From Spongiibacter thalassae (GTDB taxonomy: Bacteria > Pseudomonadota > Gammaproteobacteria > Pseudomonadales > Spongiibacteraceae), in contig NZ_JAAWWK010000002.1 of NCBI RefSeq assembly GCF_012272835.1, forward strand, positions 62,001 to 126,000: a stretch of 64,000 nucleotides of DNA, read 5' to 3'. Each line of letters begins with the position of its first letter. Position 1 is the first letter of the stretch. The translations under genes were made by a program, and so were the position numbers. The notes under the pieces were generated by a model that saw nothing but the letters and a program-made list of their open reading frames with translations, did no database searches and had not been told where the DNA came from. This document shows, piece after piece, positions 12,487-64,000 of the stretch.

Positions 12487-12903
12487 ATGGCGAGTATTGA
12501 TCCTCGGCCCGAGGAGTTCAGCCAATTGATAGCGCGAATTCCTCCGCGGCAGCCGGTAGTGATGCTGAATATGCTTCGGTTTGCCGAGTATGCCAGTTAC
12601 CCCGATAGCGACGAGGTGGTCAGCGGGAGAGACGCTTACGCGCGCTACGCGACACTGGCGCGGAAGTTCGTCGAGGAAGTGGGCGGAAAAGTGATATTGA
12701 GGGGGGCCGCGCTGTCGCCATTAATCGGCCCACAGGGGGAGGATTGGGACGACATTTTTTTGGTGCGTTATCCCGCAGTGGAAAACTTTATGGAAATGCT
12801 GCTGAACCCGGAGTACCAGGAAATCACCCGGCACCGGCGGGCGGCACTGATGGATTCTCGTTTGATAGCCTTGAGTGACAACGATGTGACAGGAGGCGAT
12901 TGA
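12487..12903 (+). CDS. DUF1330-like soluble protein
   Basis: A 138-residue ferredoxin-like-fold protein. The segment QPVVMLNMLRFAEY is the first strand and WDDIFLVRYPAVENFMEMLLNPEYQEITRHR the conserved second half, as in DUF1330/EthD-like dimeric alpha-beta barrels. It lacks a signal peptide. Two larger, membrane-anchored relatives occur at 57320-57979 and 63095-63676. It is directly followed by a GST-like gene, and the 57320 copy is followed by a decayed GST-like gene in the same order, so the two products probably work together. ATG 12487 follows GGGAG. The substrate is unknown. Confidence 0.8.
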   Translation: MASIDPRPEEFSQLIARIPPRQPVVMLNMLRFAEYASYPDSDEVVSGRDAYARYATLARKFVEEVGGKVILRGAALSPLIGPQGEDWDDIFLVRYPAVENFMEMLLNPEYQEITRHRRAALMDSRLIALSDNDVTGGD

Positions 12904-46023: not shown

Positions 46024-47085
46024 TCAAAGGCCTTCACGGGTTTTGATAATGCCATTGGATCCTGCAGGAAGACTAAACGAAACTCCGTCCTCACCGATCG
46101 TATAGTTCTTGAATATTTTGTCGGCACCATCGAGATACAGCGCTTTCTGTCCAGGAATCACCATGGGAGGAACAATATGGTAGTAGAGCAGGTGGCCGAC
46201 ATTGGCGTCCCTTGCTGTTTCTGCGGCTTCTACCGGGCTGGCGTGATAATCCAGAATATCGTGTGTCACCTTTGCCATTACGGTGTTCCCTGTGTTTCTG
46301 GCAACCTTGTTCATGAGTCCAACAAGGTTGGGTGATAATGCTTCATGAACAAGGAGATCTACGCCCTTGGCAAAGTATGCGACATTGTCGGATTTTATAG
46401 TGTCACCTGTGATCAAAAGCGAGCGATCCTTATAGGAAAAGCGATAACCAACAGCGGGTTCTACCGGGGCATGCTCTACCGAAAAGACCTCAATTTTGAG
46501 ATCCGCCGTCTTTACCAGTGTTGTTAGTATACCCTTTTCAGGTTGTTGGAAAGGACGTGCCTGTAAACCTGCGCCGCTTGCCGGGGCGACGACATCACCG
46601 TGGTGCTCATGGCGGTAATGGAAGTCATATTGATAGGCCTGATTAAAGCCGGCAACGACATTTCCTACCCCTTGGGGCCCGTAAACCGGAAGTGGGCTAG
46701 TGTTAGCGCGGCTGGCCCATCGGAGAGTCGCCATTTCACCCAGACCATCGATATGGTCGGAGTGGAAATGTGTTAGAAAAACAGCTTCAATATCGCCAAT
46801 GTTATATCCCATTCGGCCGATATTGCGAGTGCCATCGGTTCCAGCGTCTACAACAAACATTTGCTGACCTGCGATGACCAAAACGCAGGGGCCGGAAGCA
46901 GAAGGCGCTGGCATTGGCCCACCTGCGCCACACAGGGCCAGATGTAGCCCGTCATCCAAATCCTGCGAGGCCTGAGCTGACAGGCGTGCCTCGAGACCTT
47001 TCTCCATAATTTTGCTGGTAAGACCCGCAGGCATACAAGCCGCGAGAGAGGTCGCAAGAATCAGTGTGATAATTTTTTTGTACAT
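46024..47085 (-). CDS. MBL-fold metallo-hydrolase lipoprotein
   Basis: A 353-residue protein. A lipoprotein signal is visible (ILATSLAAC, Cys 17). The metallo-beta-lactamase fold follows, with the zinc motif THFHSDHIDG (His106, His108, Asp110, His111), a TGDT strand near residue 230, and a later histidine in THDILDYHAS. The layout is like RNase Z/arylsulfatase AtsA-type MBL proteins; Pseudoalteromonas AtsA is a zinc arylsulfatase of this class, so a third sulfatase is possible but unproven. It starts 40 bases after the TonB receptor stop and is surely in its transcript. Confidence 0.88.
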   Translation of the reverse strand: MYKKIITLILATSLAACMPAGLTSKIMEKGLEARLSAQASQDLDDGLHLALCGAGGPMPAPSASGPCVLVIAGQQMFVVDAGTDGTRNIGRMGYNIGDIEAVFLTHFHSDHIDGLGEMATLRWASRANTSPLPVYGPQGVGNVVAGFNQAYQYDFHYRHEHHGDVVAPASGAGLQARPFQQPEKGILTTLVKTADLKIEVFSVEHAPVEPAVGYRFSYKDRSLLITGDTIKSDNVAYFAKGVDLLVHEALSPNLVGLMNKVARNTGNTVMAKVTHDILDYHASPVEAAETARDANVGHLLYYHIVPPMVIPGQKALYLDGADKIFKNYTIGEDGVSFSLPAGSNGIIKTREGL

Positions 47086-49568: not shown

Positions 49569-49617
49569 ATTATGGCATCAATAGTGCCAATATGTGGTGT
49601 TAGCGGGTTAATGTCAA
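49569..49617 (-). promoter_or_regulatory. Promoter of the TonB receptor with operator A
   Basis: On the minus strand TTGACA (49617-49612) and CATATT (49594-49589) are 17 bases apart. The operator TGGCA-N7-TGCCA at 49573-49589 begins at the -10 element, so a bound repressor would block transcription. The -35 hexamer is also part of a 7-3-7 palindrome (49612-49628). Confidence 0.65.
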
Positions 49618-49628
49618 GTGTCTTGACA
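49612..49628. promoter_or_regulatory. Perfect 7-3-7 palindrome upstream of the TonB receptor
   Basis: TGTCAAG-tgt-CTTGACA forms a perfect inverted repeat just upstream of operator A. It contains TTGACA on both strands and may be a second regulator site or simply back-to-back -35 elements. Confidence 0.4.
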
Positions 49629-49698
49629 CCTTATTGCGCGGATTTTGATAACTCGTTGATTTAAAGCGCGATATGATGAGTGCCGGAGTGTGGCGCGT

Positions 49699-50289
49699 TT
49701 ACTGGCGCGCGAGAATATCCTTGAGAAGAGTGGTAATAATTTCGCGACTGGTGGACTTGCTCAGTCCCTGGTGTTCACGCAGACGGTGCCACATTTCAAA
49801 AGAGGCTATGGCGTCGACCGCTTCGCGATAAGCTTTATCGAGTTTAGTGATTTCTGGTAGCCAGTCGTCAAGATCCTTGCGCAGCCCTCGCTGAATTTTT
49901 GCGTAGTTTTTCCGTAGAAAGTCGTACTTCCAGCGCTGCGCTGCAGTGGTCAATATGATATTGCTGTTTTGTTCGTACACTTCAGCGTGTTGCTCTACCG
50001 CGTGCTCTATACGTTCTTCAATCGTACCATTTCGATCACCGCCCAGCGTCAGCGCGATATATTTGTCACGAATAGTCTCATCAACGGCGACAAATAGGGT
50101 GCTCATATCGTCGAAGTGACGAAAGAAAGTGCGTAATCCAACGCCGGCTCGTTCTGCGATTTGCTGCGCTGTTGGAATCAGCACGCCTGCGTTAACTAGT
50201 TCCACCGCTGCGGCAACAATGGCAGCGCGACTGCGCTCTGTCCTCTGCCGACGTCCGTCAGCGGATTTCTGGGCGGTAGTTTCGGTCAT
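49699..50289 (-). CDS. TetR/AcrR family transcriptional regulator
   Basis: A 196-residue repressor-type protein. The helix-turn-helix spans about residues 22-65 (SRAAIVAAAVELVNAGV, then QQIAERAGVGLRTFFRHFDD). The ligand domain is acidic and helical with no family-specific signature I recognise. It lies between the TonB receptor and the divergent GST-sulfatase operon; operators A and B flank it, and a weaker half-matching site (50364-50380) sits in front of its own gene. It is the best candidate for the protein recognising the TGGCA-N7-TGCCA sites. Confidence 0.9.
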   Translation of the reverse strand: MTETTAQKSADGRRQRTERSRAAIVAAAVELVNAGVLIPTAQQIAERAGVGLRTFFRHFDDMSTLFVAVDETIRDKYIALTLGGDRNGTIEERIEHAVEQHAEVYEQNSNIILTTAAQRWKYDFLRKNYAKIQRGLRKDLDDWLPEITKLDKAYREAVDAIASFEMWHRLREHQGLSKSTSREIITTLLKDILARQ

Positions 50290-50363
50290 ATGCAGGATTC
50301 CTCAATGTGGCGTTACAAGCAGCTATTCATGCCATGAATAAAGCTGTGGGTCATTGTATATAG

Positions 50364-50380
50364 TGGCATATTCTATGTCT
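50364..50380. promoter_or_regulatory. Weak operator-like site before tetR-like gene
   Basis: TGGCA-N7-TGTCT keeps the left arm and spacing of the operator family but has only a partial right arm. It is closer to the tetR-like start (50289) than to the GST start and could serve autoregulation. Confidence 0.35.
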
Positions 50381-50428
50381 ATTGTTGCTAGCCGACAGAC
50401 CAAATAAAGTCGTTATAACTTTTCGATT

Positions 50429-50453
50429 ATATTGACATTGGTAGTGCCATAAT
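50429..50453 (+). promoter_or_regulatory. Operator B upstream of the GST-sulfatase operon
   Basis: TGACA-N7-TGCCA (50433-50449), followed by TAATAAT-like sequence. The left arm is part of a TTGACA hexamer (50432-50437) that may be the -35 element. It lies 52 bases before the GST-like start codon. Confidence 0.7.
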
Positions 50454-50500
50454 AATAGAGTCGATAGTTACTGTGGTTGTGTTAAAGGCTGGTGTGTTAA

Positions 50501-51544
50501 ATGGACAGACCTATTCGACTGCGACTTATCGGTGCGCCAGGGTCGCCGTATACCCAAAAAATGTTGGGCCTCCTGCGCTATCGTCAAATTCCCTATGACG
50601 TAATGTGGGGGATGCCGGAGGTTGTGCTGGAGCAGATGCACGTAGCCAAACCTAATATGGTTTTCATGCCAACATTTTTGTTTGACGATGACCTGGGGGA
50701 AGTTGTCGCGCACTGTGATTCAACACCGATCATTCGGGAGTTGGAGGCGCGCTACCCGGAGCGCACAGTATTGCCCCGCGATCCTGCGCTCGGCTTTATC
50801 GACTATTTACTTGAAGATTTTGCCGATGAGTGGGTTACCAAGTACATGTTCCATTACCGCTGGCACGCCGAGGTCGATGCGGATAATGCCGGAACGTTGT
50901 TGCCGCTGAGCGCTGGGCCTCATCTTAGCGACGATGAGGCGACCCAGCTCAAACAATTCTTCACCCAGCGCCAGATTTCCCGCCTCGAATATGTGGGTTC
51001 AAATGCACTGACAGCGCCGGTAATCGAAGCGAGCTATCGGCGTTTTCTGGTTGCGATGCAGGCTCATCTCGCACAGCGGCCTTTTCTGCTAGGGCAGCAA
51101 CCGGCTGCCAGCGATTTCGCGTTCTACGGGCAGCTAAGCCAGTTAGTTGGTTTTGACCCTACACCTCGGCGTATCGCCCATGAGTTATCACCTCGTACTG
51201 TCGGTTGGGTTTACATGATGAATGACTTATCGGGGTTGCAACCGAGCATTGACGGCTGGATGTCTTTGGAAGATCAGTCGGATACCCTACGGGGTCTATT
51301 GGCGGAGTGTGGTCGCGTGTACGTTCCAGCCTTGCTTGCTAACAATGCAGCAGTAAAAGCCGGCGAAAAGCATTGGTCGACCGAGATAGATGGCTGTGAC
51401 TGGCAGCAACGCTCGTTTCCGTACCAGTCCAAATGTTTGGCATGGATTAATGGAGCCTATCAGTCGCTGACTGCCCGGGATAAAAATCGCGTAGATCGTG
51501 TGCTTGAGGGGACCGGCTGTGAAGATATGTTAAAGGCCGATTAG
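50501..51544 (+). CDS. Glutathione S-transferase-like protein
   Basis: A 347-residue protein. The thioredoxin-like N-domain begins RLRLIGAPGSPYTQKMLGLL with RYRQIPYDV and, around residue 75, CDSTPIIRELEARYP. The helical C-domain contains RPFLLGQQPAASDFAFYGQL. About 100 extra C-terminal residues end in VLEGTGCEDML. The same family occurs at 12931-13881 and as a decayed gene at 57011-57308. First gene of a five-gene operon under operator B. Its long tail and lack of an obvious catalytic Ser/Tyr/Cys make glutathione use uncertain. Confidence 0.86.
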   Translation: MDRPIRLRLIGAPGSPYTQKMLGLLRYRQIPYDVMWGMPEVVLEQMHVAKPNMVFMPTFLFDDDLGEVVAHCDSTPIIRELEARYPERTVLPRDPALGFIDYLLEDFADEWVTKYMFHYRWHAEVDADNAGTLLPLSAGPHLSDDEATQLKQFFTQRQISRLEYVGSNALTAPVIEASYRRFLVAMQAHLAQRPFLLGQQPAASDFAFYGQLSQLVGFDPTPRRIAHELSPRTVGWVYMMNDLSGLQPSIDGWMSLEDQSDTLRGLLAECGRVYVPALLANNAAVKAGEKHWSTEIDGCDWQQRSFPYQSKCLAWINGAYQSLTARDKNRVDRVLEGTGCEDMLKAD

Positions 51545-51580
51545 CGACACCTGGTCGCGTATATAACTTAAAGGAGCTGG

Positions 51581-52450
51581 ATGATGGATATCAAGAAAAT
51601 TTTAAAGGTTGGTTTGCCGTTCATCGCGGGAACCCTCGCTGTTATAGCAATTGCGTTACCGACAATTCTGCACAACGCGGGCCTGCACCCCGAGTATACC
51701 GGTGAGGTATCTAAGTATCCTGGCGGCAAGGCACTGATCATCACTACCAGTCACGGAGTGTTATCGGAGCCTGGCCTGGACGTTGGGCCCGCCACGGGTG
51801 TGGCGGCCTCTGAAATGACCCATCCTTACTATGTATTTCAGGAGGCTGGCATGGACGTTGACGTTGCCAGCATTCAGGGTGGATCAATACCAATAGACCC
51901 TCAGACACTTTCCTACCCGATAATCACAGACCATGATAAACGCTTTTTGGAGGACAGTATTTTTCAGGCGAAAGCCAGCAATTCGATTGCTGTGAGGGAT
52001 GTAGATATCAGCAAGTACGATGTTATTTTTCTCGCAGGCGGGTGGGGGGCTGCCTATGATATGGGTAATTCAGAGGAGTTGGCGGCACTGATCAGCGCCG
52101 CGTACTATTCGCCGAAAGCGCCGGTGGTCGCATCAGTCTGCCATGGCGCTCTGGGCTTGATAGGTGCCAAAGATAACGACGGTAAACTCTTGATCGAAGG
52201 GCGTCGGGCGACAGGGGTCACCGACAAGCAGGTTAAAGAGCTGGGCATCAAGGTTACCCCGATGCACCCGGAAACTGAGCTGCGCAAAGCCGGTGCAGTC
52301 TTTGAAAGCGCCACGGCTTTCCGGGATATCTTTGCCACTTGGGTGACAGTAGATGACGAACAACGCTTTGTGACCGGGCAGAACCAGAACTCCGGGCTGG
52401 AAGCTGCGTACACGTCGGTAAATATTCTGGCACAGCGAAAAATTCAATAA
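51581..52450 (+). CDS. Membrane-anchored DJ-1/PfpI family protein
   Basis: A 289-residue protein. A hydrophobic helix at residues about 10-30 is followed by a class I amidotransferase-like fold: KALIITTSHGVL, YDVIFLAGGWGAAYDMG (oxyanion strand), and the nucleophile elbow ASVCHGALGLIG with Cys187. The anchor suggests the enzyme sits on the periplasmic face, unusual for DJ-1/PfpI proteins, which are mostly cytosolic. Family activities include deglycation, glyoxalase III and hydratase reactions. AAGGAG precedes the ATG. It is 36 bases after the GST-like gene. Confidence 0.86.
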   Translation: MMDIKKILKVGLPFIAGTLAVIAIALPTILHNAGLHPEYTGEVSKYPGGKALIITTSHGVLSEPGLDVGPATGVAASEMTHPYYVFQEAGMDVDVASIQGGSIPIDPQTLSYPIITDHDKRFLEDSIFQAKASNSIAVRDVDISKYDVIFLAGGWGAAYDMGNSEELAALISAAYYSPKAPVVASVCHGALGLIGAKDNDGKLLIEGRRATGVTDKQVKELGIKVTPMHPETELRKAGAVFESATAFRDIFATWVTVDDEQRFVTGQNQNSGLEAAYTSVNILAQRKIQ

Positions 52451-52466
52451 TAACGAGGTTATAGCC

Positions 52467-52856
52467 ATGCAATGGTTGTTGAAAATACCGGTTTCCCTAA
52501 TTGGTGTGCTGATGTTAAGTATGGGGCTACGCTGGTTGATGGCTCCGTCGGGTATTGCCAGCGAACTGGGTATGCCGCTGTTGGATGGCGCGGGACTGAG
52601 TACGCAGATAGGCGATCTCTCGGCTTTTTTTCTTTGCATCGGCGTGTTTACTTTGATGGGGCTAAGTACCCGATGGCCACACTGGTACTACGCTGCGGCC
52701 TTGCTGCTAGGCCTCACTGCTTTCGGTCGAGTTCTGGCCTGGCTGCTCCACGGAGCGGCGTTCCTGCCGAAAGTCATAGGCCCCGAGGTATTTTTCACCG
52801 TTATTCTGCTTCTGGCGGCGCGCATACTGTGCACTAAATCGGAACGCCCATCGTGA
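52467..52856 (+). CDS. DUF4345 family small membrane protein
   Basis: A 129-residue inner-membrane protein with four hydrophobic segments (about residues 5-25, 50-67, 73-92 and 105-122), matching the DUF4345 pattern (SMGLRWLMAPSGIASELG; IGDLSAFFLCIGVFTLMGL). No function is known. The stop overlaps the sulfatase GTG start by four bases. Confidence 0.82.
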   Translation: MQWLLKIPVSLIGVLMLSMGLRWLMAPSGIASELGMPLLDGAGLSTQIGDLSAFFLCIGVFTLMGLSTRWPHWYYAAALLLGLTAFGRVLAWLLHGAAFLPKVIGPEVFFTVILLLAARILCTKSERPS

Positions 52857-54670
52857 TCGTTTCAATTCGAACCAGGTGTATTGCACTGCAGGTTGGGTTG
52901 TTGCTCGCCTTCCAGAGTCTGGCGGGTTCAGTCCACTCTGAAATCGACGTCAGTGCCGCGAGCCTGCACGATAATAAACGCCCTAATATAGTGTTAATCC
53001 TCGCCGATGATTTGGGCTATACCGACGTGGGGTCTTTTGGCGGGGAGATTGCCACACCCACCATTGATAGTCTTGCGGCTGAGGGAATACGGTTTAGCAA
53101 CTATCATACGGCGGCAAACTGTGCACCCGCTCGAGCGATGCTTCTAACGGGGGTGTCTAATCATCGCGCGGGAGTAGCCAATATTATCGAGATGATTCCT
53201 CCTGAGCAGCGGGATCATCCAGCTTATCAAGGCGAACTGAGTCACAATGTCGTCACCGTGGCGACGTTATTGGAAGAAGCTGGCTACAACACATATATGT
53301 CTGGTAAATGGCATCTCGGCCGCACCCAGGACAAGTTGCCCAGTCGAAGGGGATTTCAGCGCACGATAGCTCTTGCTGATTCCGGTGCCGACAATTGGGA
53401 ACAAAAACCCTATATACCTATTTACGATAACGCCAATTGGTATGCAGATGGCGAGCGCTTTACCTTGCCCGATGATTTTTATTCCTCTCGATTTCTTGTC
53501 GACAAAATGATTGATTTTATTAAATCTGATCAGTTGAAAGATGGATCTCGGGAAGCGCCCTTCTTCGCGTACTTGCCTTTTCAGGCCGTACATATACCGG
53601 TCCAGGCGCCGCAGGAATTTATTGATCGCTACGAGGGGCGTTACCTGGAGGGGTGGACAACGCTGCGTGAGGAGCGTCGCCGGAGGGCAATTGAACTCGG
53701 GATTGTATTGCCCGATGTGCCCGCAGCCACTATGCATACAACGAGGGATTGGAACGAGTTAAGTGACGAAGACAAACGGTTTGAGGCCAAGCGCATGGCG
53801 GTGTATGCGGCCATGGTCGAAGCCATGGATTTCCATATTGCGCGCTTGGTTCAATATCTCCGCGAAATTGGTGAGTTTGATAATACTATTTTTATATTTA
53901 CCTCGGATAACGGCAGTGAGCCCAGTGGGGCCGACGCGCTTAATACGACGAGAGCCCGGTTTCAACTAGCGCGGCAGGGCTATACCGCTGATTACGAGAC
54001 CCTTGGTCTTAAAGGGAGCTTTGTTAATCTTGGACCGAGTTTTGCCAGTGCCAGTGCTTCCCCGCTAGCCTACTATAAATTCTACGCAGGTGAAGGTGGA
54101 CTGCGTGTGCCGCTTATCATCGCGGGCAAGCCATTGGCGATTAAGCCTGACGTCGAGCGAGCTTTTACCTATGTAAAGGATATAACCCCAACGATTTTAT
54201 CTCTGACCGGGGTCGACCAGCCGGGAGGGCGCTACGCCGGTAAACCCGTTGAGCGGATTACAGGTAAAGATCTTAGCCCTTTACTAAAAGGCAACGTTGA
54301 TAAAGTTTACGGTGACGACGAGGCCATCGGCTACGAACTTGCGGGGCAGGGCGTGCTCTTTTTAGGAGATTACAAGCTTGTTATGACACGCGGGCCGGTG
54401 GGCGACGACAGATGGCGGCTCTTTAATATAAATAATGACCCCGGCGAAACCCGGGATCTGAGTTCTCAGCAAGCCGTGCGTTTCCAGAAAATGCTGAATC
54501 TCTATCAGCAATATAAACGTGAAAATGGGGTATTGGACCCACCGCAGGGATATAACCATATTCGCCAGGTTGCTTTAAACACCATCTACGATCGATTCCG
54601 TGGTGAAGCGGTGGCGGTGCTTATTCTTATTGTTTTACTGGTGGGCTTCCGTGTCTACGCTAAAAAGTGA
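52853..54670 (+). CDS. Formylglycine-type sulfatase with C-terminal membrane tail
   Basis: A 605-residue type I sulfatase. After a signal sequence (ALQVGLLLAFQSLAGSVHSE) the calcium-binding acids are in LILADDLGY (Asp52, Asp53). The formylglycine site is CAPAR at residues 90-94 (consensus C-x-P/A-x-R). SGKWHLG, FQAVHIPVQAP and FTSDNGSEPSG supply the other active-site residues. A C-terminal hydrophobic helix (VAVLILIVLLVGFRVYAKK) probably anchors it in the inner membrane. It removes sulfate from an ester; the substrate is unknown. GTG 52853 overlaps the preceding stop. An anaerobic or FGE-type maturase must be encoded elsewhere. Confidence 0.93.
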   Translation: MIVSIRTRCIALQVGLLLAFQSLAGSVHSEIDVSAASLHDNKRPNIVLILADDLGYTDVGSFGGEIATPTIDSLAAEGIRFSNYHTAANCAPARAMLLTGVSNHRAGVANIIEMIPPEQRDHPAYQGELSHNVVTVATLLEEAGYNTYMSGKWHLGRTQDKLPSRRGFQRTIALADSGADNWEQKPYIPIYDNANWYADGERFTLPDDFYSSRFLVDKMIDFIKSDQLKDGSREAPFFAYLPFQAVHIPVQAPQEFIDRYEGRYLEGWTTLREERRRRAIELGIVLPDVPAATMHTTRDWNELSDEDKRFEAKRMAVYAAMVEAMDFHIARLVQYLREIGEFDNTIFIFTSDNGSEPSGADALNTTRARFQLARQGYTADYETLGLKGSFVNLGPSFASASASPLAYYKFYAGEGGLRVPLIIAGKPLAIKPDVERAFTYVKDITPTILSLTGVDQPGGRYAGKPVERITGKDLSPLLKGNVDKVYGDDEAIGYELAGQGVLFLGDYKLVMTRGPVGDDRWRLFNINNDPGETRDLSSQQAVRFQKMLNLYQQYKRENGVLDPPQGYNHIRQVALNTIYDRFRGEAVAVLILIVLLVGFRVYAKK

Positions 54671-54741
54671 TGCTAAGTGGCAAGATCTTCAGGCTATGTC
54701 TAATTGCGGTGTTGCAGCGTAGCACTTAATGGGAAATTGAT

Positions 54742-55449
54742 ATGAAAAAATGGATACTACGGGTAGCAGCGACATTGACGGTCTTATTATTATTCGGTTT
54801 TTGGCTCGCTTTTTTCTCGGCCAGGCCACCATTAATGACTGATCGAGCTGTTCTGGCAGGTGATGGAAGCGCAATTAATTATTGCCATTTTCCAGCGCTG
54901 GACGGTAGCGGTAAGAGAGCTGAAGATATACCGAAGGGTAATACGCCAGGCTGTGGCTATGACCACTTTCCCTTTCCAATTCTGGCGGAATGTACTGAGC
55001 CGTTGCCTGAAGAAGCTGACGATATTCGTGGGCTCTGGATTGGTGTTAAGGGTGGTAATGTTGGGCATGTCGAGAGAGTTGAGCAATGCGGCTCGCGGGT
55101 TGTGATTACGTCGTCGGGTATCATTCATGACGGCGGCCCCAATCTCAATGCGGATACGATTGGAATGAACTCCAATGATACAGAAGGTGCAGTGCTCTTT
55201 ACGATAGGTGATAAGGAATACTGTCCCAGAACCTCGGCCAGTATGACGTGGAGAAATAAAGTCCTCGAATTTAATGTTTTTGGTTGGGGCCCCGTGGTCG
55301 TGAAGCGTTACCTCACCCAGGGGCCCAATGGCGAACAATTAGTGTGGGAATACGCGGATGGCTCGACCACGTACATGGAAAGAATATGCACCCTGCCTGA
55401 AGACGAAAAAGTTCCTGAGGAGCGAGGGCTGCGTTGGAATATCTTTTAA
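54742..55449 (+). CDS. Hypothetical membrane-anchored protein, Cys-rich
   Basis: A 235-residue protein with one N-terminal membrane helix (VAATLTVLLLFGFWLAFFSA) and a periplasmic domain with seven Cys (for instance NYCHFP, GCGYDHFPFP, LAECTEPL, EQCGSR, KEYCPR, RICTLP) that could form disulfides. I do not recognise it. It is the last gene of the operator-B operon, 71 bases after the sulfatase, so it may assist or bind the same substrate. Confidence 0.75.
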   Translation: MKKWILRVAATLTVLLLFGFWLAFFSARPPLMTDRAVLAGDGSAINYCHFPALDGSGKRAEDIPKGNTPGCGYDHFPFPILAECTEPLPEEADDIRGLWIGVKGGNVGHVERVEQCGSRVVITSSGIIHDGGPNLNADTIGMNSNDTEGAVLFTIGDKEYCPRTSASMTWRNKVLEFNVFGWGPVVVKRYLTQGPNGEQLVWEYADGSTTYMERICTLPEDEKVPEERGLRWNIF

Positions 55450-56277
55450 TTCAGGTGTTGGTAGGCAAGATGACCACGCCTGGCGGTTGGAAATAGCTAG
55501 AAAAACTGACGCCTACGGGAGTAATCCTGCTGCGCCAACAGCAGCTGGATCAGTAGCTCCTCAATTTTGGAACGCCAAATACGCCTATCGGTATCTCATT
55601 GTTCGCGATTTACAACCAATCCGTCGCAGCGAACGGATTGGTTCATTTCAAGATAATATCCTTAATGTAATAGACTGTATGCAGTAAAGACCCCGGATGA
55701 CGGGGTGCTAGATCGCGGTACCTTTAGTTTTGGATGACCCTTACTGGCTTTCTGACGAAGATTTCACTCCCGGCTATCCCCTAACTGTATCGCTTTGCCA
55801 AAACGCTGGGGATTGGTGTCGGCTAGGTAAGGCCTCCACGATATTTTTTCCAGTCGTCCAGTAGGGCGAAATTGCGCGGCAAGAACTCGGTGAACATAGC
55901 CTTGGCTTATAAACGAATGGAGCCCAGAGAGTGAATGTTACTGAGTATCCCTGGGTACTGCGCCCTTATGTATAAGCCGTGGTGAAGAACTGACACTTGT
56001 TAGCGAAAACTTCGCAAAGTACATGGCGATAGTAAGTGCACTATCGCCGTCGGGAACATTTAAGCGAATCATTAGCCAAGGTTCATGCGCGTGTAGCGAT
56101 AAAGCGTTCTGGTACTCTGCTGCAAGGCTGTCGAGGTCAGATAGTCGACGTGTGCCTGGGCACTTTTATGTATGCGCTACCGAAAATCAGTGGATAGGCA
56201 TTGGCAACCAGGCGATGTTCAGTATAAGTATACATCTAACGGTGATTTCAATCCTTTACGGGAGCAGTTTCTGGTCA
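55450..56277. other. 828-base non-coding/decayed region
   Basis: No convincing gene is present; open frames are short and lack ribosome sites and family motifs. One perfect 11-bp hairpin occurs at 55614-55643. The stretch lies directly beside clear gene remnants (56278-57308), so it is most likely eroded DNA between two functional operons. Confidence 0.6.
55614..55643. other. Perfect 11-bp hairpin
   Basis: aaccaatccgt / acggattggtt with an eight-base loop, 165 bases after the last gene of the operator-B operon. There is no T run; it may be a weak transcription stop or a relic. Confidence 0.45.
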
Positions 56278-57012
56278 TCAGTCCAGAAATCCAAAATTAT
56301 AGCGAAAATCTATTGAGTAAAGGGTTTCGTCGGGATGTGTTACAGCGACATAGTTGCCTCCCTGTTGCTGTGCATCAAGCACTAACAGCCTTTCCTTCTG
56401 TTGGGTTAGGTTCTTGGCATTAAGAATGACGGCCCAAAGTTTGTTCAGCGGAGATATTGCCAAGCGTGCATTGATTTTGGTAGTAGCCTCTTGATAGGTC
56501 TTTTCGTCGAGATCTGGGTCGAGGAAGTGATCGCCCTGATAAATTATATCGACCGCAAACATGGCGCCTATTTCACGTGCGGGCCAAAGGGGCAACCTAA
56601 CCGTAGGCGTAATACTGGCAGATTCCGCCGGCGCGAATGCCAATCGCTTGCCAGTTAAATCTTGCGAAGGTGGCGCGTCTTCCCCACACTCCGGTAGCGC
56701 GTCCCGATCATCCCAGGTTGTGGGCCCGCAGGGAAAATCCCCATAGCGTGTTTTATTAAAGCCCACGCTGCCTTGTAATGTGAGCCATGGTACGGGCGGG
56801 AGCCATTGGAAATCAATCTCAAGCCCGGTGGAGTGAGCCTCGCCAGTATTGGCGGTAGAAATCTGCGTGCCGTCGAACAAGTTTAGCTGAAAGTTGTCGA
56901 AATCGACCTTGTATACAGTAGCGTTCAGCTCAAGCGTTTGATCAAATAAGCGACTTTTTATGCCGATCTCAGTGGAAAGCGCTTCTTCCGCTTCGTACAC
57001 AGAGCGAAAGCT
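56278..57012 (-). pseudogene. TonB-dependent receptor remnant (C-terminal third only)
   Basis: About 240 codons aligning with the C-terminal part of the receptor at 47126-49510: EALSTEIGIKSRLFDQTLEL matches AVSKEIGIKSFLLDKTLQL, QDLTGKRLAFAPAESASI matches QDLTGREVPYAPKISASL, and EATTKINARLAISPLNKLWA matches EATTKVNLRLGLKQFDNGLS. The signal, TonB box, plug and most of the barrel are missing, so it cannot be functional. It is joined at its 5' side to a GST-like remnant, marking a deletion. Confidence 0.88.
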
Positions 57013-57308
57013 ACGGGTTTACGTGTAGAAATAGCAGGCAACCCGTATCTTTCAGCACAGGATTCAACGCGGCCTTCGCAGAATCTGAGAGCGCGCCGTA
57101 TTGTTTCTGAAGTGCTGGCGGCCAGCGTGGAAGCACTCGGCGCTCATAGGTTACACCGGTCACCTCCAGCCAATGAAATTTATCCTGCTTTTGGCTAGCC
57201 TGGTGATCCACTGGAAGGGAATGCGGCGGTAACGCAAGTAAGCCGCATCTTCACGGAATAGGGCGTCATCAGAAAGCCGTATAACTTGTAGTGGTCTGCC
57301 GTAACCAT
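57011..57308 (-). pseudogene. GST-like gene remnant with internal deletion and frameshift
   Basis: Read on the minus strand from ATG 57308, the start encodes YKLYGFLMTPYSVKM and, after a frame change, AYLRYRRIPFQWITR. These match the N-terminal SPYTQKMLGLLRYRQIPYDV of the 50501-51544 protein. It then jumps straight to KFHWLEVTGVTYERR and ALNPVLKDTGC, matching that protein's C-terminal KHWSTEIDGCDWQQRS and RVDRVLEGTGC. The middle ~220 residues are gone. It starts 11 bases after the DUF1330-like gene, the same order as the intact pair at 12487-13881. Confidence 0.75.
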
Positions 57309-57319
57309 ACTCATAGTCA

Positions 57320-57979
57320 CTATTTTCTTTTGATAAACTTCATTGCAAACCTGGCCGTAATGGCTAATGCAATAAGAAAAAGCGCGACCAGCAGGCGCAG
57401 CCCCGGAAAGGTCAGGGTTGGTTTAATAGGGAATACCTGGGTTTTTTCCATGGACGCCCATTTATGAACCGCAACGTCACCCAGTGAGGCCATTTCAATC
57501 AACATTTCCAACATGTCACGCACGCTGCGATAACGGATAATAATGACGCTGTCCCAGTCTCCCCACTCGCCTTCAATAAGAAAGGTGCCGTTCAGAGGAC
57601 CGAGTAGCATGGGATGGCTGCCGCGCTTTAGGAGTAAAGGCGCGATCTTGTCAGTATATCGCGCGTTCGCGGCCAGTGGATCAGGGTCCGCGGCCCAAGG
57701 GGAATCCGGCGGGTAGGCCGCGATTTCCCGGAAGTCCATCAAATTAACCATAAGAAACTCCCCGCCTTGATCAGAAGCGGCGAGGTTACGCATATACTTG
57801 ACTGGGGCTGAGGGGTCGAGCCCCCGGGCGTGGCTCGCAGCTTTGAACTTCTCGATGTAGCTTTCCAGCTCCTGGTCATTTACAGGTGATGCAAAACCTC
57901 CGTACCAGCCGAGAAAGGCACCGTAGAAGACCACCAATACTGCGTAAAGAATTTTCACGATCAGACACCTCTTGAGCAA
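57320..57979 (-). CDS. Membrane-anchored DUF1330-like protein
   Basis: A 219-residue protein with an N-terminal helix (ILYAVLVVFYGAFLGWYGGF) and a C-terminal helix (LRLLVALFLIALAITARFAM) around a DUF1330-like domain: GGEFLMVNLMDFREI and WDSVIIIRYRSVRDMLEMLI match the soluble relative at 12487-12903. The domain is therefore held at the membrane at both ends. It is divergent from the second sulfatase with operator C between them, so the two are likely co-regulated. Function unknown; a lyase, isomerase or binding role on a small hydrophobic molecule is possible. Confidence 0.82.
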   Translation of the reverse strand: MLKRCLIVKILYAVLVVFYGAFLGWYGGFASPVNDQELESYIEKFKAASHARGLDPSAPVKYMRNLAASDQGGEFLMVNLMDFREIAAYPPDSPWAADPDPLAANARYTDKIAPLLLKRGSHPMLLGPLNGTFLIEGEWGDWDSVIIIRYRSVRDMLEMLIEMASLGDVAVHKWASMEKTQVFPIKPTLTFPGLRLLVALFLIALAITARFAMKFIKRK

Positions 57980-58000
57980 TGGGCTAGCGCCCGCAGGCGC

Positions 58001-58042
58001 TTGACGCTATTCTTAAGATAATGGCATTATGAGTGCCATAAT
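58001..58042 (+). promoter_or_regulatory. Promoter of the second sulfatase operon with operator C
   Basis: TTGACG (58001-58006) and CATTAT (58025-58030) are 18 bases apart. TGGCA-N7-TGCCA (58022-58038) covers the -10; with flanks the arms match at eight of nine positions. It also lies 43 bases upstream of the divergent DUF1330-like gene. Confidence 0.72.
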
Positions 58043-58068
58043 ACAAGTCACCCTCAACAGAGGCGAGC

Positions 58069-59736
58069 ATGAAGACAAAGATTGCGTTGGTATTAATCGG
58101 TTTGGCGGGTTTTGGCGCGTTCGGGTGGGTTTATCGAATTGACCTGTTGTTGATGGTGGTGAAATATCAGTCACAACGTGAATTCGAGGTTTCTGCCCAT
58201 AGAGAGATAGACTGGCCAGCGGGCCCGAATGATAGCTCGATACCCGTAGATGCCCGGCCTCCTAATGTCGTGCTGATTGTGGCAGACGATTTAGGGTACA
58301 ACGATATTTCTACCTTTGGCGGTGGTGTGGCCGGCGGCCGCGTGCAAACCCCTGGTATTGATCAGCTAGCGGCAGAAGGTGCGGTATTCCGTCAGGCCTA
58401 TTCCGGCAGCGCAACCTGTGCGCCGTCTCGGGCAATGATTATGACAGGGCGTTATCCTACCTCAACCGGTTTAGAGTTTACGCCGACACCCAGTGGTATG
58501 GCGCCGATGATAGCAAAGATCACTGATTCAATGGATCGTGGATTGCCGGCAACACACTTTAACAAGGAGGCTGCGGAAGTAGCGTTACCCTATGAATTGC
58601 AGGGACTGCCTGCGGATGAAGTGACGGTTGCCGAAGTGTTGAAGACGAAGGGCTACCAGACGGCCCATATCGGTAAGTGGCATCTGGGGCGAAGTGCGGG
58701 CTCATTGCCCCATGATCAAGGTTTTGATGACAGTCTTTTGATGGCCAGTGGCCTTTTTTTGCCGGAAGATGACCCCAACGTAGTGAATGCGAAACTGCCG
58801 TTCGATCCGATCGATCAGTTTCTTTGGGCACGGATGGTTTACGCAGCATCGTTTAATACCGGTGATGTGAACCGGTTTCGTCCCAAAGGGTACTTGACTG
58901 ACTACTGGACGGATGAATCCATCAAGTTTATCCGTGCAAATCGAAACAGACCTTTCTTTCTTTATCTGGCGCATTGGGCGACACACACGCCTTTGCAAGC
59001 AACGCGGGAAGACTACGAGGCCGTGGGGGACATAAAGCCTCATCGCCTGCGTGTTTATGCAGCGATGGTGCGCGCATTGGATCGCAGTGTTGCGCGCATA
59101 ACTGAAACCCTCGAAGCCGAAGGCTTGGCAAATAATACGGTCATTATCTTTACCAGTGACAATGGCGGTGCAGGCTATCTGGGGCTGCCTGAACTGAACG
59201 CACCTTACAGAGGCTGGAAGTTAACTGCGTTTGAAGGCGGTATTCGCGCGCCCTTGTTTATCAAGTGGCCGCAGCGAATCCCCCAGGGTACGGCGGTGGA
59301 GACACCCGTCGCCCATATTGATTTGATGCCAACGGTGGCCAGTGCTGCGGGCGCAAGCACGCCGGAAGGTATCGAGATAGATGGAATCGATCTGCTTCCG
59401 TTGGCCACTGGTCAGGCTGAAGATGATCAAACGCGCACGCTGTTCTGGCACAGTGGCTACTATCGTATCGTTCGTCACGGTGATTGGAAGCTGCAAGTGT
59501 CAGAGCGTCCGAACAAGCAGTGGCTTTATAATCTGGCCGAAGACCCGACAGAACAGCACAATCTGGCGCAGCATCGCCCCGACAAGGTCGCGGAGCTGGT
59601 AGCGTTGCTGGATCAGCATAAAGAGCATGGGAGGCCTCCTCTGTATCCCTATGTTATGGAAATTCCGGTTGCGGTGGATAAAACATTAGCTGAAGGCTTT
59701 GTGCCTGGGGATGAATTCATCTATTGGCCAAATTGA
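58069..59736 (+). CDS. Formylglycine-type arylsulfatase family protein, membrane-anchored
   Basis: A 555-residue type I sulfatase. An N-terminal hydrophobic helix (ALVLIGLAGFGAFGWVYRI) is followed by a charged linker. LIVADDLGY (Asp73, Asp74), the classical formylglycine motif CAPSR at residues 117-121 with AMIMTGRYP, HIGKWHLG, AHWATHTPLQ and FTSDNGGAGY are all present. The activation motif is the canonical one, unlike the CAPAR of the other sulfatase. It is only distantly similar to the 52853-54670 protein, so the two may act on different sulfate positions. Its 3' end is followed by the twin-DsbA gene. Confidence 0.94.
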   Translation: MKTKIALVLIGLAGFGAFGWVYRIDLLLMVVKYQSQREFEVSAHREIDWPAGPNDSSIPVDARPPNVVLIVADDLGYNDISTFGGGVAGGRVQTPGIDQLAAEGAVFRQAYSGSATCAPSRAMIMTGRYPTSTGLEFTPTPSGMAPMIAKITDSMDRGLPATHFNKEAAEVALPYELQGLPADEVTVAEVLKTKGYQTAHIGKWHLGRSAGSLPHDQGFDDSLLMASGLFLPEDDPNVVNAKLPFDPIDQFLWARMVYAASFNTGDVNRFRPKGYLTDYWTDESIKFIRANRNRPFFLYLAHWATHTPLQATREDYEAVGDIKPHRLRVYAAMVRALDRSVARITETLEAEGLANNTVIIFTSDNGGAGYLGLPELNAPYRGWKLTAFEGGIRAPLFIKWPQRIPQGTAVETPVAHIDLMPTVASAAGASTPEGIEIDGIDLLPLATGQAEDDQTRTLFWHSGYYRIVRHGDWKLQVSERPNKQWLYNLAEDPTEQHNLAQHRPDKVAELVALLDQHKEHGRPPLYPYVMEIPVAVDKTLAEGFVPGDEFIYWPN

Positions 59737-59780
59737 ATCGGCCAATGATACCGTTTCAATTTATAAAGAGCAGATACGCG

Positions 59781-61181
59781 ATGGATATGAACCAAAAGTT
59801 TTCAAATCAGGGCGGCGCTGCGAATTCGAGCCCTAACGCCATTGTGCGCTGGCTGACATCTACCATAATGACCAGGCTCTTTACTCCGGAAAAATTGGAG
59901 GCACGTCGCGCCCGTGCCGAGGTGCAGCGAAAAAAAGCCGGTGAGCCACATCGGGTAATATACTTTCATCAAGTTGATGATGGCTACAGTCATCTTGCAG
60001 CACAGGTTCTCCCGGCCTTGGCAGAGCGTTATGATATCGAGTTGGAGTGCTGTCTCGTGCGCGGGCCTGCCGGGCCGAACCTCCCCGAGCCGGATCTCCT
60101 TTTGCAGCTATCACGTTATGACGCTTATCAAGTGGCACCGGAATATGGGCTGGAATTTTCCCGGCACGAACAGCCACTTCGGGACGATTTGCGTGACCGC
60201 GCCAGTACCATTTTGGCTGCGCAGAATTCAGAGGAGTTCATTGACAGGGCCGCTGTGGTTGGCCGGGCCATGTGGGCAGGTGAAGCCGATAAGCTCGAAC
60301 AATTCGCGGTAGAGTTTGGCGTCGCTTCGAATAACGACACCGTGCAAGCCCTTGATCGGGGAACAACGCTACGAACGGACCTCGGTCATTATTCCGGTGC
60401 CATGTTTTACTACGGGGGCGAGTGGTACTGGGGCGTAGATCGCCTTTACCATCTGGAGAAACGTCTCGCTGCACTGGGTGCAGATCGTAAACCAGATACT
60501 CCCTTACTGTTTGATCGCCCGTCTTTGAATGTCGGCAGTCTGAAAGATAATGGTAGCCTGACACTCGAAGTTTATCCTTCCCTGCGCAGCCCCTATACGG
60601 CGATCTCTTTTGACCGCGCAGTTCAGTTGGCTCGCGACATAAACGTCAAGCTATCGGTACGACCGGTGTTGCCCATGGTGATGCGCGGTGTGCCGGCTAC
60701 CCGCGAGAAGGGCATGTACATTTTTATGGACGCGGCGCGCGAGGCGTCGGCAGCCGGTGTGCCTTACGGACGGTTTAAAGACCCCATCGGCGAGCCAGTG
60801 CGCAAAGCCTACTCGCTTTACCCCTGGGCGGTAGAGCAGGGGCGGGATGTGGAATTTATTTCCAGCTTTCTTCACGCAGCCTTCGCCGAGGGTATCAATA
60901 CCAACCGGCTTTCGGGGCTTAAAACGGTGGTGGAGAATGCCGGTCTGGATTGGAGCGTTGCCAAGGGCCTGATTGGTAGCGGAGGCTGGGAGGAGCCACT
61001 CGAGGAAAATCGCATGGCGATGTATGAGGCCGGTCTTTGGGGCGTGCCGAGTTTCCGCTTGCTCAATGCGCAGGGTGAATCAGTGCTGGCGCTGTGGGGG
61101 CAGGATCGGTTGTGGTTGTTTGCGCGGGCAATTCAGCGTGAGTTAAATAAAGATCAGCGTGGCGATAAATCTCAATTGTAG
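59781..61181 (+). CDS. Protein with two tandem DsbA-like (HCCA isomerase-type) domains
   Basis: About 466 residues with two thioredoxin-like DsbA-family units. Unit 1 starts HRVIYFHQVDDGYSHLAAQV; unit 2 starts TLEVYPSLRSPYTAISFDRA and ends with GLWGVPSFRLL (the cis-Pro VPSF of HCCA isomerases) and LWGQDRLWLFARAI. Neither has a CxxC active site; SPYT in unit 2 resembles the SPY/S of 2-hydroxychromene-2-carboxylate isomerase and kappa-class GST, which use glutathione. There is no signal peptide, so it is cytosolic. ATG 59781 is favoured. Co-transcribed with the second sulfatase. Confidence 0.83.
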   Translation: MDMNQKFSNQGGAANSSPNAIVRWLTSTIMTRLFTPEKLEARRARAEVQRKKAGEPHRVIYFHQVDDGYSHLAAQVLPALAERYDIELECCLVRGPAGPNLPEPDLLLQLSRYDAYQVAPEYGLEFSRHEQPLRDDLRDRASTILAAQNSEEFIDRAAVVGRAMWAGEADKLEQFAVEFGVASNNDTVQALDRGTTLRTDLGHYSGAMFYYGGEWYWGVDRLYHLEKRLAALGADRKPDTPLLFDRPSLNVGSLKDNGSLTLEVYPSLRSPYTAISFDRAVQLARDINVKLSVRPVLPMVMRGVPATREKGMYIFMDAAREASAAGVPYGRFKDPIGEPVRKAYSLYPWAVEQGRDVEFISSFLHAAFAEGINTNRLSGLKTVVENAGLDWSVAKGLIGSGGWEEPLEENRMAMYEAGLWGVPSFRLLNAQGESVLALWGQDRLWLFARAIQRELNKDQRGDKSQL

Positions 61182-61221
61182 CCAAATACATAACAAACGT
61201 AATCAGACATTTCTGTAATAC

Positions 61222-61255
61222 AGCGCCCCTGCTATTCCCGGCAGGGGCGCTTTGG
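61222..61255 (+). terminator. Terminator of the second sulfatase operon
   Basis: A perfect 11-bp GC-rich stem (61222-61232 with 61241-61251, loop of eight) followed by a short T run. It separates the operon from the convergent acyl-CoA synthetase. Confidence 0.75.
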
Positions 61256-61267
61256 GTCGAGAGCCCC

Positions 61268-62926
61268 TTACTTATCAATCCAGTACACGCCGCTTTCAGT
61301 TTCGCAGTCGATCGGATCGCGGTAGAACGCTTCGATCTTATCGCGCTTTAACTTCATGGTCGGTGTCAGAAGATCGTTTCCTACGTCCCAGGTTGTCTCA
61401 GTTATTGCGATGCGATCCAGGCGGGCGTGAGATTCCAATTGCTGATTGACCTCTTTCAAGGTCTTTTCAATATTGGACTTGATTTGTTCTTTGCTCAGGC
61501 CCTGATCGTTGAGCACCACAATGGCCATGGGCGCCGGACGCCCGGAACCCAGCACGCAGACCTGCTCGATCAGTGAGTTAGTCGCCAGTTGGCTTTCAAT
61601 GGGTACGGGGGCGACGTATTTGCCTTTCGCTGTTTTAAATTGCTCTTTTACTCGGCCGGTGATGCGGTAGGCGCCGTTCTCGTCTTTGACGCCTTTGTCG
61701 CCGGTGCGGAACCATCCATCAATAAACGATTCTGCGGTGGCTTCGGGGTTTTTGTAGTATTCCTCGAAAATCGCTGCGCCGCGAATCAGCACTTCGCCGT
61801 CGTCAGAGAGTTTCATTTCATTGCACGCTAGTGGGGTGCCGATGGTGCCCATACCCTCAACAGTGAATGGCTGGTTGGAACAGGCAAGTCCGGACGTTTC
61901 TGTCATACCCCAGCCTTCGGCAATACCTACACCAATGCGCTGGAACCATTCGAGTAGAGCAGGGGCGATAGGAGCCGAGCCAGAGCCGTAATTGCGACAT
62001 GAGCCAAAACCGAGTTTGTCGCGGATGGCCGCGGCTACTGCATCACCGCCGTCGCCGGCAAGCATGTCCTGCAACTGTTCGTCAGGGATTTGTGCGAGTA
62101 CTTTTGCCTGGAATTTGGCCCAGAGTCTGGGTACTGAAATGAAGTCAGTGGGTTGGCAGTGGTGAAGTTCGTCAACAAAGGTTTCCAGACCTTCGGAGAA
62201 GAAGAGTTCTACCTGGCCGTAAATAGATGTGATTGCGACCACTGAGCGCTCGGTAATATGAGCCAGTGGCAGGTAAGACATCATACGGTGTAGTTGATCT
62301 CCGCCAACCATACGGTTTTTGGTTTCAGTAGCGGCGGCACCGAGGTGGCCGTGAGTCAGTAATACGCCCTTGGGCTTTCCGGTGCTACCCGAAGTGTAGA
62401 CGATGGTAGCCATGTCGTCCGCTTTCGGGGAGTGATAGCTATCCAGTGGCGCCGAGGAATCCAAAATGCCTTGCCAGGACAGGGCACCGGCGTATTGGGC
62501 GTTGGCGTCCGGTAAGGTGATGACCGGGATATTGGCCAGACTTTGTTGTGCGGCGCTACAGTTGTCCAATTTTCCTACAAAACACAGTTTTGCTTCACTG
62601 TGCTCAAGTACATATTCGATAGTCTCTGATGAGGCGGTGGAATAAATGGGTACCGGTATGATCCCTGCTAGCATCATGCCGAAATCCGCCGCAAGCCAGG
62701 CGTAGCTGTTTTTGGCGAGAATAGCGACTCGGTCGCCGGGTTCAATACCTTGTTTTAATAGGGCATTGGCGACCCGGCTACCCTCATCAATAACTTCGGC
62801 AATCGTGTAGCTTTTCCATACACCGTTGGTGGGCTGATGCAGCCATGTTTCGTTGGGCCTGTTTTTTAAATTAGCGGTCAGCTGCTCGATGGGAAGCACG
62901 TAAGTAGAAGTATCGGTAGCGGTCAT
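61268..62926 (-). CDS. AMP-forming acyl-CoA synthetase
   Basis: A 552-residue ANL-superfamily enzyme. The P-loop is TIVYTSGSTGKPKGVLLTHG, followed by the SYLPLAHITER segment, GWGMTETSG, the hinge/ATP motif GWFRTGDKG and RITGRVKEQFKTAKGKYVAP containing the catalytic Lys region. This layout fits long-chain fatty-acid or bulky carboxylate:CoA ligases of the FadD15-like branch. ATG 62926 lies eight bases after AAGGGA; a TTG six bases upstream is less likely. It has no operator of the TGGCA family in front, so it may be regulated separately. Confidence 0.93.
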   Translation of the reverse strand: MTATDTSTYVLPIEQLTANLKNRPNETWLHQPTNGVWKSYTIAEVIDEGSRVANALLKQGIEPGDRVAILAKNSYAWLAADFGMMLAGIIPVPIYSTASSETIEYVLEHSEAKLCFVGKLDNCSAAQQSLANIPVITLPDANAQYAGALSWQGILDSSAPLDSYHSPKADDMATIVYTSGSTGKPKGVLLTHGHLGAAATETKNRMVGGDQLHRMMSYLPLAHITERSVVAITSIYGQVELFFSEGLETFVDELHHCQPTDFISVPRLWAKFQAKVLAQIPDEQLQDMLAGDGGDAVAAAIRDKLGFGSCRNYGSGSAPIAPALLEWFQRIGVGIAEGWGMTETSGLACSNQPFTVEGMGTIGTPLACNEMKLSDDGEVLIRGAAIFEEYYKNPEATAESFIDGWFRTGDKGVKDENGAYRITGRVKEQFKTAKGKYVAPVPIESQLATNSLIEQVCVLGSGRPAPMAIVVLNDQGLSKEQIKSNIEKTLKEVNQQLESHARLDRIAITETTWDVGNDLLTPTMKLKRDKIEAFYRDPIDCETESGVYWIDK

Positions 62927-62961
62927 AGGCAATATCCCTTTTGTTATCTGATATATTTCAG

Positions 62962-62989
62962 GTGTACTGGTGTATTCTCTGAGTGTACT
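62962..62989. repeat. Direct repeat GTGTACT, 21 bp apart
   Basis: GTGTACT at 62962-62968 and 62983-62989, with a related GTGTATT at 62970, in the promoter region of the acyl-CoA synthetase. Two helical turns of spacing would place both on one DNA face. The rest of the 168-base gap between that gene and the DUF1330-like gene shows no gene. Confidence 0.35.
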
Positions 62990-63094
62990 TAATATCGGAA
63001 AATCACTGAGTAATAATGAGTGTTATAACCGATTGCTATAAATTGCATTACATTTGAGTTTTGATAAGCTGGAAATTGAGCAGTAACTGCAACA

Positions 63095-63676
63095 TTAGAT
63101 CAGGAGCTCTAATATGCAAGCGACTAATAGTGTAATCAGTGCTACCACAATTTTTGGTCCCGCTAATATAAACCATTTCCCAGCGGGAAAGGCGATAGTG
63201 CTCGCCACCGCGTCGAGCTTCAATTGGTGATGATCGCAGCCAAAAGTTTTCGGTAGTATCTCCAGCAGGTCACGCCGACTGCGATAACGGATGGCGGCCA
63301 TTGCTGCCCAGTCGCTATTCTGCTCGCAATTGACGTGCTCAATATTGGCCCCACAGCGCAGTGCAGTTATAACCGGGTGACCAGCTTTGCGCAGGAGTTG
63401 CCCGAGAAAAACCCTTTGATAGGCGGCTAATTTAGCGCTTGATTCCCTAACAGGCTTTTTCAGCGTGATTAAATTGACCATAACGAAGTCGCGCCCGTCA
63501 TCGTTGGCAAAAAAATCCCGCAGCCCCTTGGCGCGCGCAGCCGGAATGCCAGAATCGGTAGCCCATTGCTGAAAGCGGTCAGCTTCCAGTGGCGTAATTT
63601 TCTTCCTTGGTCTGGCATACCAAAGCCAAAATACCGCGTAGACCAAACCAGCTATTACCCAGATAGCCTGCGTCAT
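63095..63676 (-). CDS. Membrane-anchored DUF1330-like protein
   Basis: About 193 residues: an N-terminal helix (AIWVIAGLVYAVFWLWYARP), a DUF1330-like domain (GRDFVMVNLITLKKP; AMAAIRYRSRRDLLEILPKT) and a C-terminal helix (IVVALITLLVACILELLI). It is a paralogue of the protein at 57320-57979. ATG 63676 follows AAGG and places operator D upstream; the longer frame to 63853 would put the operator inside the coding region. Two Cys and a GCDHH stretch are unique to this copy. Confidence 0.8.
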   Translation of the reverse strand: MTQAIWVIAGLVYAVFWLWYARPRKKITPLEADRFQQWATDSGIPAARAKGLRDFFANDDGRDFVMVNLITLKKPVRESSAKLAAYQRVFLGQLLRKAGHPVITALRCGANIEHVNCEQNSDWAAMAAIRYRSRRDLLEILPKTFGCDHHQLKLDAVASTIAFPAGKWFILAGPKIVVALITLLVACILELLI

Positions 63677-63770
63677 TCGAGAACACCTTGCGTTAATTTT
63701 ATTCCAGTCCATTTGGTGGCGCGGGCTGATTGTCAGCTCACTGACCATCGAGTAATTTCCGGCCCATAAT

Positions 63771-63795
63771 TTAATGGCACTAATGCTGCCATTAT
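63771..63795 (-). promoter_or_regulatory. Operator D upstream of the second DUF1330-like gene
   Basis: TGGCA-N7-TGCCA (63775-63791) with flanks giving a perfect 8-bp inverted arm. A TATAAT hexamer on the minus strand overlaps its edge (63793-63798). It lies about 95 bases before the likely start codon at 63676; no gene is seen in 63677-63976 otherwise. Confidence 0.68.
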
Positions 63796-63976
63796 ATGGC
63801 CCTGTGGTCAACGCGTGGAAGAATCCAACGTATGCTGACTTACAACATAGCACAGAGTGAGTTTCTCAAGGTTTTTCTGTTTGTGACTGGCCCGGATGGT
63901 TGGCAGGCCAAGTCGCTCTCGGGTGGTTTGGGAAATAACTAGACCGCTCTGCGCATAGATTGAGTTCTTCCTTGAT

Positions 63977-64000
63977 ATATTGGCACATGATGTGTCAATA
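63977..64000. promoter_or_regulatory. Operator E at the right window edge
   Basis: TGGCA-N7-TGTCA (63981-63997), the mirror of operator B (TGACA-N7-TGCCA). It presumably serves a gene beginning just outside the window, which would be a further regulon member. Confidence 0.6.

Follow-up and report, generated by a model that had tools for sequence, protein, structure and literature searches.

A TetR-family regulator and a conserved A/T-flanked palindrome outline a probable catabolic regulon in Spongiibacter thalassae

In the genome of Spongiibacter thalassae (4,404,448 bases; 4.40 Mb), copies of the inverted repeat TGGCA-N7-TGCCA lie among genes for a TonB-dependent receptor, sulfatases, and glutathione transferases (GSTs), with a tetR-like gene in their midst. 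This raises the questions of whether these scattered genes form one regulon, which protein would read the repeat, and what the genes would be for. An original prediction, made from the letters of one 64,000-nucleotide stretch (hereafter the window, C6:62001-126000), held that five such sites define a TetR-centred regulon, and here we follow it up by computational analysis of the window, of its genome, and of related loci and genomes (Table 1).

Table 1. Features of the proposed regulon, in window coordinates
Feature	Position	Strand	Details
MBL-fold hydrolase	46024..47085	-	lipoprotein-like N-terminus; PF00753; HxHxDH
TonB-dependent receptor	47126..49510	-	PF00593, PF07715
Operator A	49573..49589		before TonB receptor-MBL unit; touches end of -10-like hexamer 49594-49589
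TetR-family regulator	49699..50289	-	196 aa; proposed repressor of the regulon
Weak operator copy	50364..50380		75 bp ahead of tetR start; covers -35-like TAGACA (minus strand)
Operator B	50433..50449		between tetR and GST unit; covers -35-like TTGACA at 50432
GSTa, glutathione-transferase-like protein	50501..51544	+	GST_N_3
DJ-1/PfpI-family protein	51581..52450	+	N-terminal hydrophobic segment; PF01965
DUF4345-like small membrane protein	52467..52856	+	PF14248 at 22.4 bits, below cut-off 26.5
Sulfatase 1	52853..54670	+	PF00884; formylglycine motif CAPAR
Conserved protein	54742..55449	+	last of GST unit; no Pfam match; cluster in 6/50 loci
Small protein	57320..57979	-	no Pfam match; 26% to 63095-63748 protein
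Operator C	58022..58038		between 57320-57979(-) and sulfatase 2; overlaps two possible -10 elements
Sulfatase 2	58069..59736	+	PF00884; formylglycine motif CAPSR
Protein with two DsbA-like halves	59724..61181	+	PF01323 on second half
Second small protein	63095..63748	-	start taken as Met at 63748; no Pfam match
Operator D	63775..63791		before second small membrane-type protein
Operator E	63981..63997		before oxidoreductase-GST-haloalkane dehalogenase run outside window
Sixth site	74475		10.5 kb past window end; before another GST

The regulator, its proposed sites, and their rarity in the genome

All five palindromes are present where the original prediction placed them, each with a spacer of 7 bases and A/T-rich flanks; those at A, C, and D are exact, and the one-arm variants were also borne out (TGACA in B, TGTCA in E). 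The family is nonetheless larger than five, with a sixth site beyond the window and the weak copy ahead of tetR, which had been overlooked. The weak copy, which scored 23.5 bits with a retrained matrix (below) vs 11.0 bits with a matrix of the genome's own sites and was not recovered by genome-wide pattern searches, probably reflects autoregulation of tetR.

The gene between A and B does encode a TetR_N domain (PF00440, 28.6 bits, cut-off 24), as had been claimed, and its structure model is all-helical, with ten helices and a mean pLDDT of 87.6. A Foldseek search of the PDB gave 11 hits at E <= 0.001, with descriptions that name TetR-type or other regulators of transcription, and none of the NCBIfam regulator models reached its cut-off with this protein. 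By domain and predicted fold, the C-terminal ligand/dimer domain included, the regulator is an ordinary TetR protein.

The bare core of the palindrome is a poor marker. Allowing <=2 mismatches, it occurs at 67 places in the window vs 44.7 +/- 6.3 in shuffles, a mild excess, and exact TGGCA-N7-TGCCA is found at 15 places in the genome vs 5 for the reversed pattern. An exact core at 48367 was dropped because it lies in coding DNA, within the TonB gene, and is missing the A/T flanks. We rejected the bare ten-base core in favor of an A/T-flanked 21- to 27-mer, since it is the A/T flank, not the bare core, that sets the operator sites apart: WWTGRCA-N7-TGYCAWW occurs at exactly 6 places genome-wide (control, 0), all within C6:111571-136495 (25 kb). 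With leave-one-out matrices, each of the six sites scored 22.8-32.0 bits and stayed among the top six of 84 kb, with the next-best sequence at 11.6-13.5 bits. The claim withstood the genome scan proposed alongside it as a possible refutation: the flanked motif is not spread over coding DNA, with 6/6 places clustering at gene starts.

Co-occurrence of sites and regulator across genomes

Relatives of the TetR protein (47-66% identity) occur in 7 of the 17 other genomes of the genus, and those in 42 named-genome loci come mostly from Halieaceae and kin, plus two Spongiibacteraceae and four alphaproteobacterial MAGs. When these 42 loci were searched without bias for exact palindromes, with arms of 5 bases set 0-15 bases apart, TGACA-N7-TGTCA ranked first (22/42 loci; next word, 14) and TGGCA-N7-TGCCA tenth (11/42), compared with 9 loci for the best palindrome word in two-base-block shuffled DNA. 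The matrix of the six own sites gave 105 sites above 14 bits in 48 of 49 other loci, all chosen by their TetR relative alone, vs 1 in reversed DNA, and the retrained matrix, at 15 bits, gave 132 sites in 49 of 50 loci vs 2 reversed; L103 and L105 have 15-bit sites only. Around 16 other tetR-family genes, no locus (0/16) reached 14 bits with the own-site matrix, the best being 11.1. A site stands in front of the TetR gene itself in 23 of the 45 loci of the TetR cluster. The one locus of the 50 lacking a site, L112 (Kineobactrum sediminis), has a 58% TetR relative with no operator or other regulon clusters within its 20.6 kb, and this TetR is perhaps a displaced regulator.

Outside the S. thalassae genome, the flanked pattern is not discriminating (1-6 places per genome in other genus genomes, control 0-3), and a scored model, R1, was therefore used. 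Nine of the 21 family genomes carry the TetR, and R1 sites at E <= 0.1 are found in 8/9 of these and in 0/12 TetR-less ones, a count that is partly circular because some of the 40 training sites came from the same family genomes; the own-site matrix result above is free of this circularity. The remaining TetR-bearing genome (G002) has its best site at E 0.25, with none at E <= 0.1, and relaxing the threshold to E <= 0.5 yields a single weak match, on one strand only, in each of two among 10 TetR-less genomes of the genus. The strict motif was not found within ~1.5 kb of the seven TetR orthologues of the genus, while wider stretches around them contain sites in 7/7. Homologues of sulfatase 2 (4/12, 49-51% identity) and of the two-half DsbA protein (2/12, 36-37% identity) also occur in TetR-less family genomes; being less alike than most in TetR-bearing genomes, they may be separate groups. 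In G014, a site lies 44 bp ahead of sulfatase 2 on a contig different from that of the TetR gene. Separately, the two-half DsbA homologue of this genome (G014:C101:3408-4751) is reported with one internal stop codon. The sites, conserved with TetR and lacking at E <= 0.1 in the 12 TetR-less genomes, support the TetR-centred regulon as first proposed, and they track the regulator rather than the enzyme families.

Covariation of protein and operator gave a weaker signal. In the TetR model, residues 52-58 form a helix that, from family knowledge, we take to be the recognition helix, and residue 51, just before it, varies with base 3 of the operator arm (raw p small). With repeated sites counted once, Gly51 (30 loci) goes with A, G, T, and C in 70, 79, 6, and 1 half-sites, and Ala/Leu/Asn51 (11 loci) with 15, 5, 20, and 0, respectively; L088, which has Asn51 yet no T at base 3, falls outside the pattern of the counting script. 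With trees built without the HTH, the best topology calls for 5 or more changes at residue 51, only one of them on strongly supported branches. The correlation is not significant after tree correction, and as these changes are too few for a test, it is only suggestive of a DNA contact.

Could another transcription factor, encoded elsewhere, use the sites, with tetR merely one of its target genes? The failure of the recognition-helix correlation on the tree would allow this, as would the fact that TetR binding is predicted from sequence, but sites that follow TetR over the 21 family genomes and in nearly all loci chosen by TetR make such a factor quite unlikely.

Placement of the sites at gene starts and promoters

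The sites had been described as lying upstream of transcription units, and as a population they do. Among the 132 sites, 124 are near a called gene start vs 34% of random places, although the starts are approximate, coming from a simple longest-ORF script applied to the 50 loci. Strictly intergenic positions account for 102/132 (vs 8.7% of random places), and 30/132 lie inside a called ORF. Within the window, D departs from the description, as it is inside the longest possible ORF of its own gene and, among the start candidates examined, precedes only the later Met codons 63748, 63712, and 63676.

Predicted promoters overlap several operators. The claim that A and C overlap -10 elements held for C, which covers two possible ones, but only in part for A, which touches the last base of one; the weak copy lies over the -35 of a candidate promoter for tetR. 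Around A and B, promoter-like sites number 3 vs 1.9 in shuffles, barely above expectation, and no fitting promoter-like match was found at D or E (for E, in a scan within the window). Near A, an imperfect dyad (TGTCA-N7-TGACA, 49612-49628) contains the -35-like TTGACA of a possible TonB promoter and scored <14 bits in the matrix scan. Elsewhere, paired operators 25 bp apart stand ahead of TonB receptors (L080, L081, L082 at 17696/17721), and overlapping pairs 12 bp apart stand before GSTa (L083, L098, L099, near 15 kb), an arrangement suggestive of two dimers binding together.

The overlap of operators with candidate promoters fits repression and autoregulation. The TetR protein might instead mainly activate, or both activate and repress, given that operators precede many promoters in both orientations and that the promoters at D and E were not located. 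We consider this very unlikely, because B, C, and the weak tetR site sit on promoter-like hexamers and A touches one, positions at which a bound protein would block polymerase. A reading of the motif as a sigma-54 promoter (TGGCAC, with GG-N10-GC at -24/-12) has next to no probability and was rejected: the spacing is present at 24/132 sites and missing at 108/132, and the motif is palindromic, is bordered by A/T on either side, and varies among A, G, and T at base 3. Equally negligible are chance matches, which the commonness of the bare core might suggest and which are refuted by a flanked motif limited to one 25-kb stretch and conserved in other species.

Regulon genes, proposed mechanism, and meaning

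The genes behind the operators encode uptake and hydrolytic functions. Sulfatases 1 and 2, each with a sulfatase domain and a C-x-P-x-R motif, are predicted to be formylglycine-dependent (S1) enzymes, with matches to arylsulfatase 1hdh (E 8e-126) and 9fo1 (E 8e-71), respectively, and the MBL hydrolase has another arylsulfatase, 8gyg, as its best solved match (E 5e-24). For GSTa, a PDB search gave no solved relative at E <= 0.01. The two-half DsbA protein resembles FrnE (E 4e-5) and has DGYS and SPY segments, the latter presumably akin to those of kappa-class GST/HCCA isomerases; as CxxC is missing, it is not filed as a DsbA thiol oxidoreductase. The two small proteins had been labeled DUF1330-like, a label we do not retain, as neither has a Pfam match. 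A stretch at 12559-12867 is weakly like the 57320-57979 protein (26%, E 2e-6), and a lone 240-aa C-terminal TonB barrel piece (56281-57000, minus strand; 44% to the end of the 47126-49510 receptor) is perhaps the remains of a second regulon receptor. The scanned window genes included no recognisable polysaccharide lyase or glycosidase.

Beyond the window, the gene that had been postulated, unseen, behind E was located as a run encoding an oxidoreductase, a GST, a haloalkane dehalogenase, an SDR, an acyl-CoA dehydrogenase, and a thioesterase. The putative dehalogenase (L046:2179-3156) shows full-length homology to 5esr-type enzymes (residues 20-317, E 3e-100), with an aligned QDWGG segment; the Asp of this segment is the nucleophile in haloalkane dehalogenases. 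Behind the sixth site come a GST, then two more GSTs and a DUF2855 protein. TetR aside, GSTb is the most frequent gene cluster over the 50 loci (in 26, with 11 members preceded by a site), followed by the two-half DsbA protein (25, with 7), sulfatase 2 (23, with 17), MBL (19, with 14), and sulfatase 1, which occurs in 15 and never has a site to itself.

The sites, their genome rarity, their co-occurrence with TetR, and their placement at gene starts are read from the sequence; that TetR itself binds and represses, how far each operon extends, and what the inducer and substrate are is inferred. With a probability of about 0.85, we propose that TetR is a dimeric repressor acting on six strong and one weak palindromes, released by an inducer and switching the whole gene set together. 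A dimer of the 49699-50289 protein would bind a ~27-bp palindrome, roughly TAWWWTGRCAY-N5-RTGYCAWWWTA, and hinder RNA polymerase where promoters overlap or abut operators. Release of TetR would come from an inducer, probably either the substrate itself or an early intermediate linked to CoA or glutathione, and would turn on the TonB receptor, three putative sulfate-ester hydrolases, several glutathione transferases, the haloalkane dehalogenase, oxidoreductase/acyl-CoA enzymes, and tetR itself. The operator-led enzyme genes are very probably co-switched.

The enzyme families present suggest that a hydrophobic sulfate ester is degraded, with glutathione- and CoA-linked steps and possibly halogen removal; taken as a whole, the genes resemble a pathway that imports and degrades an organic compound that is hydrophobic, sulfated, and possibly halogenated. 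One may go further and imagine that marine bacteria possess a dedicated glutathione-dependent pathway that removes both sulfate and halogen from a sulfated, halogenated natural product, e.g., algal chlorosulfolipids, with three putative sulfatases, a haloalkane dehalogenase, several GSTs, and acyl-CoA enzymes under shared operators and with TetR sensing this compound class; so specific a reading is unlikely.

The TetR family includes KstR, FadR, and DesT, which locally repress genes for lipid or sterol metabolism. They are like this TetR in domain, in fold (Foldseek matches), and in palindromic operators before several catabolic-type units, and DesT and a fatty-acid regulator are among its profile matches, but they differ in identity (12-22%), operator sequence, gene content, and lineage. 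Ms6564 of Mycobacterium smegmatis (4jl3, solved with DNA) is similar by structure (TM-score 0.67 by query length, Foldseek E 5e-4) at 18% identity. Sulfatases 1 and 2 share formylglycine motifs with S1-type enzymes such as arylsulfatase 1hdh and carrageenan sulfatase 9fo1 but differ in having GSTs and lipid-type enzymes as neighbours, while relatives of known haloalkane dehalogenases (5esr and others) are here encoded in a run with GST and acyl-CoA enzymes. Local repressors that govern several operons are commonplace. Paper searches yielded no description of this operator or regulon in the titles and abstract starts among the matches listed, and to that extent the original term "undescribed" holds: the regulon is new and its kind known, a solid and useful finding and not a new principle.

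Together, these results join some twenty little-known genes, from marine Spongiibacteraceae and Halieaceae, in a single unit that has a defined operator and is probably inducible, which makes the substrate question directly testable. Should the substrate turn out to be a sulfate ester carrying halogen, the regulon would become a candidate for the pathway that degrades it.
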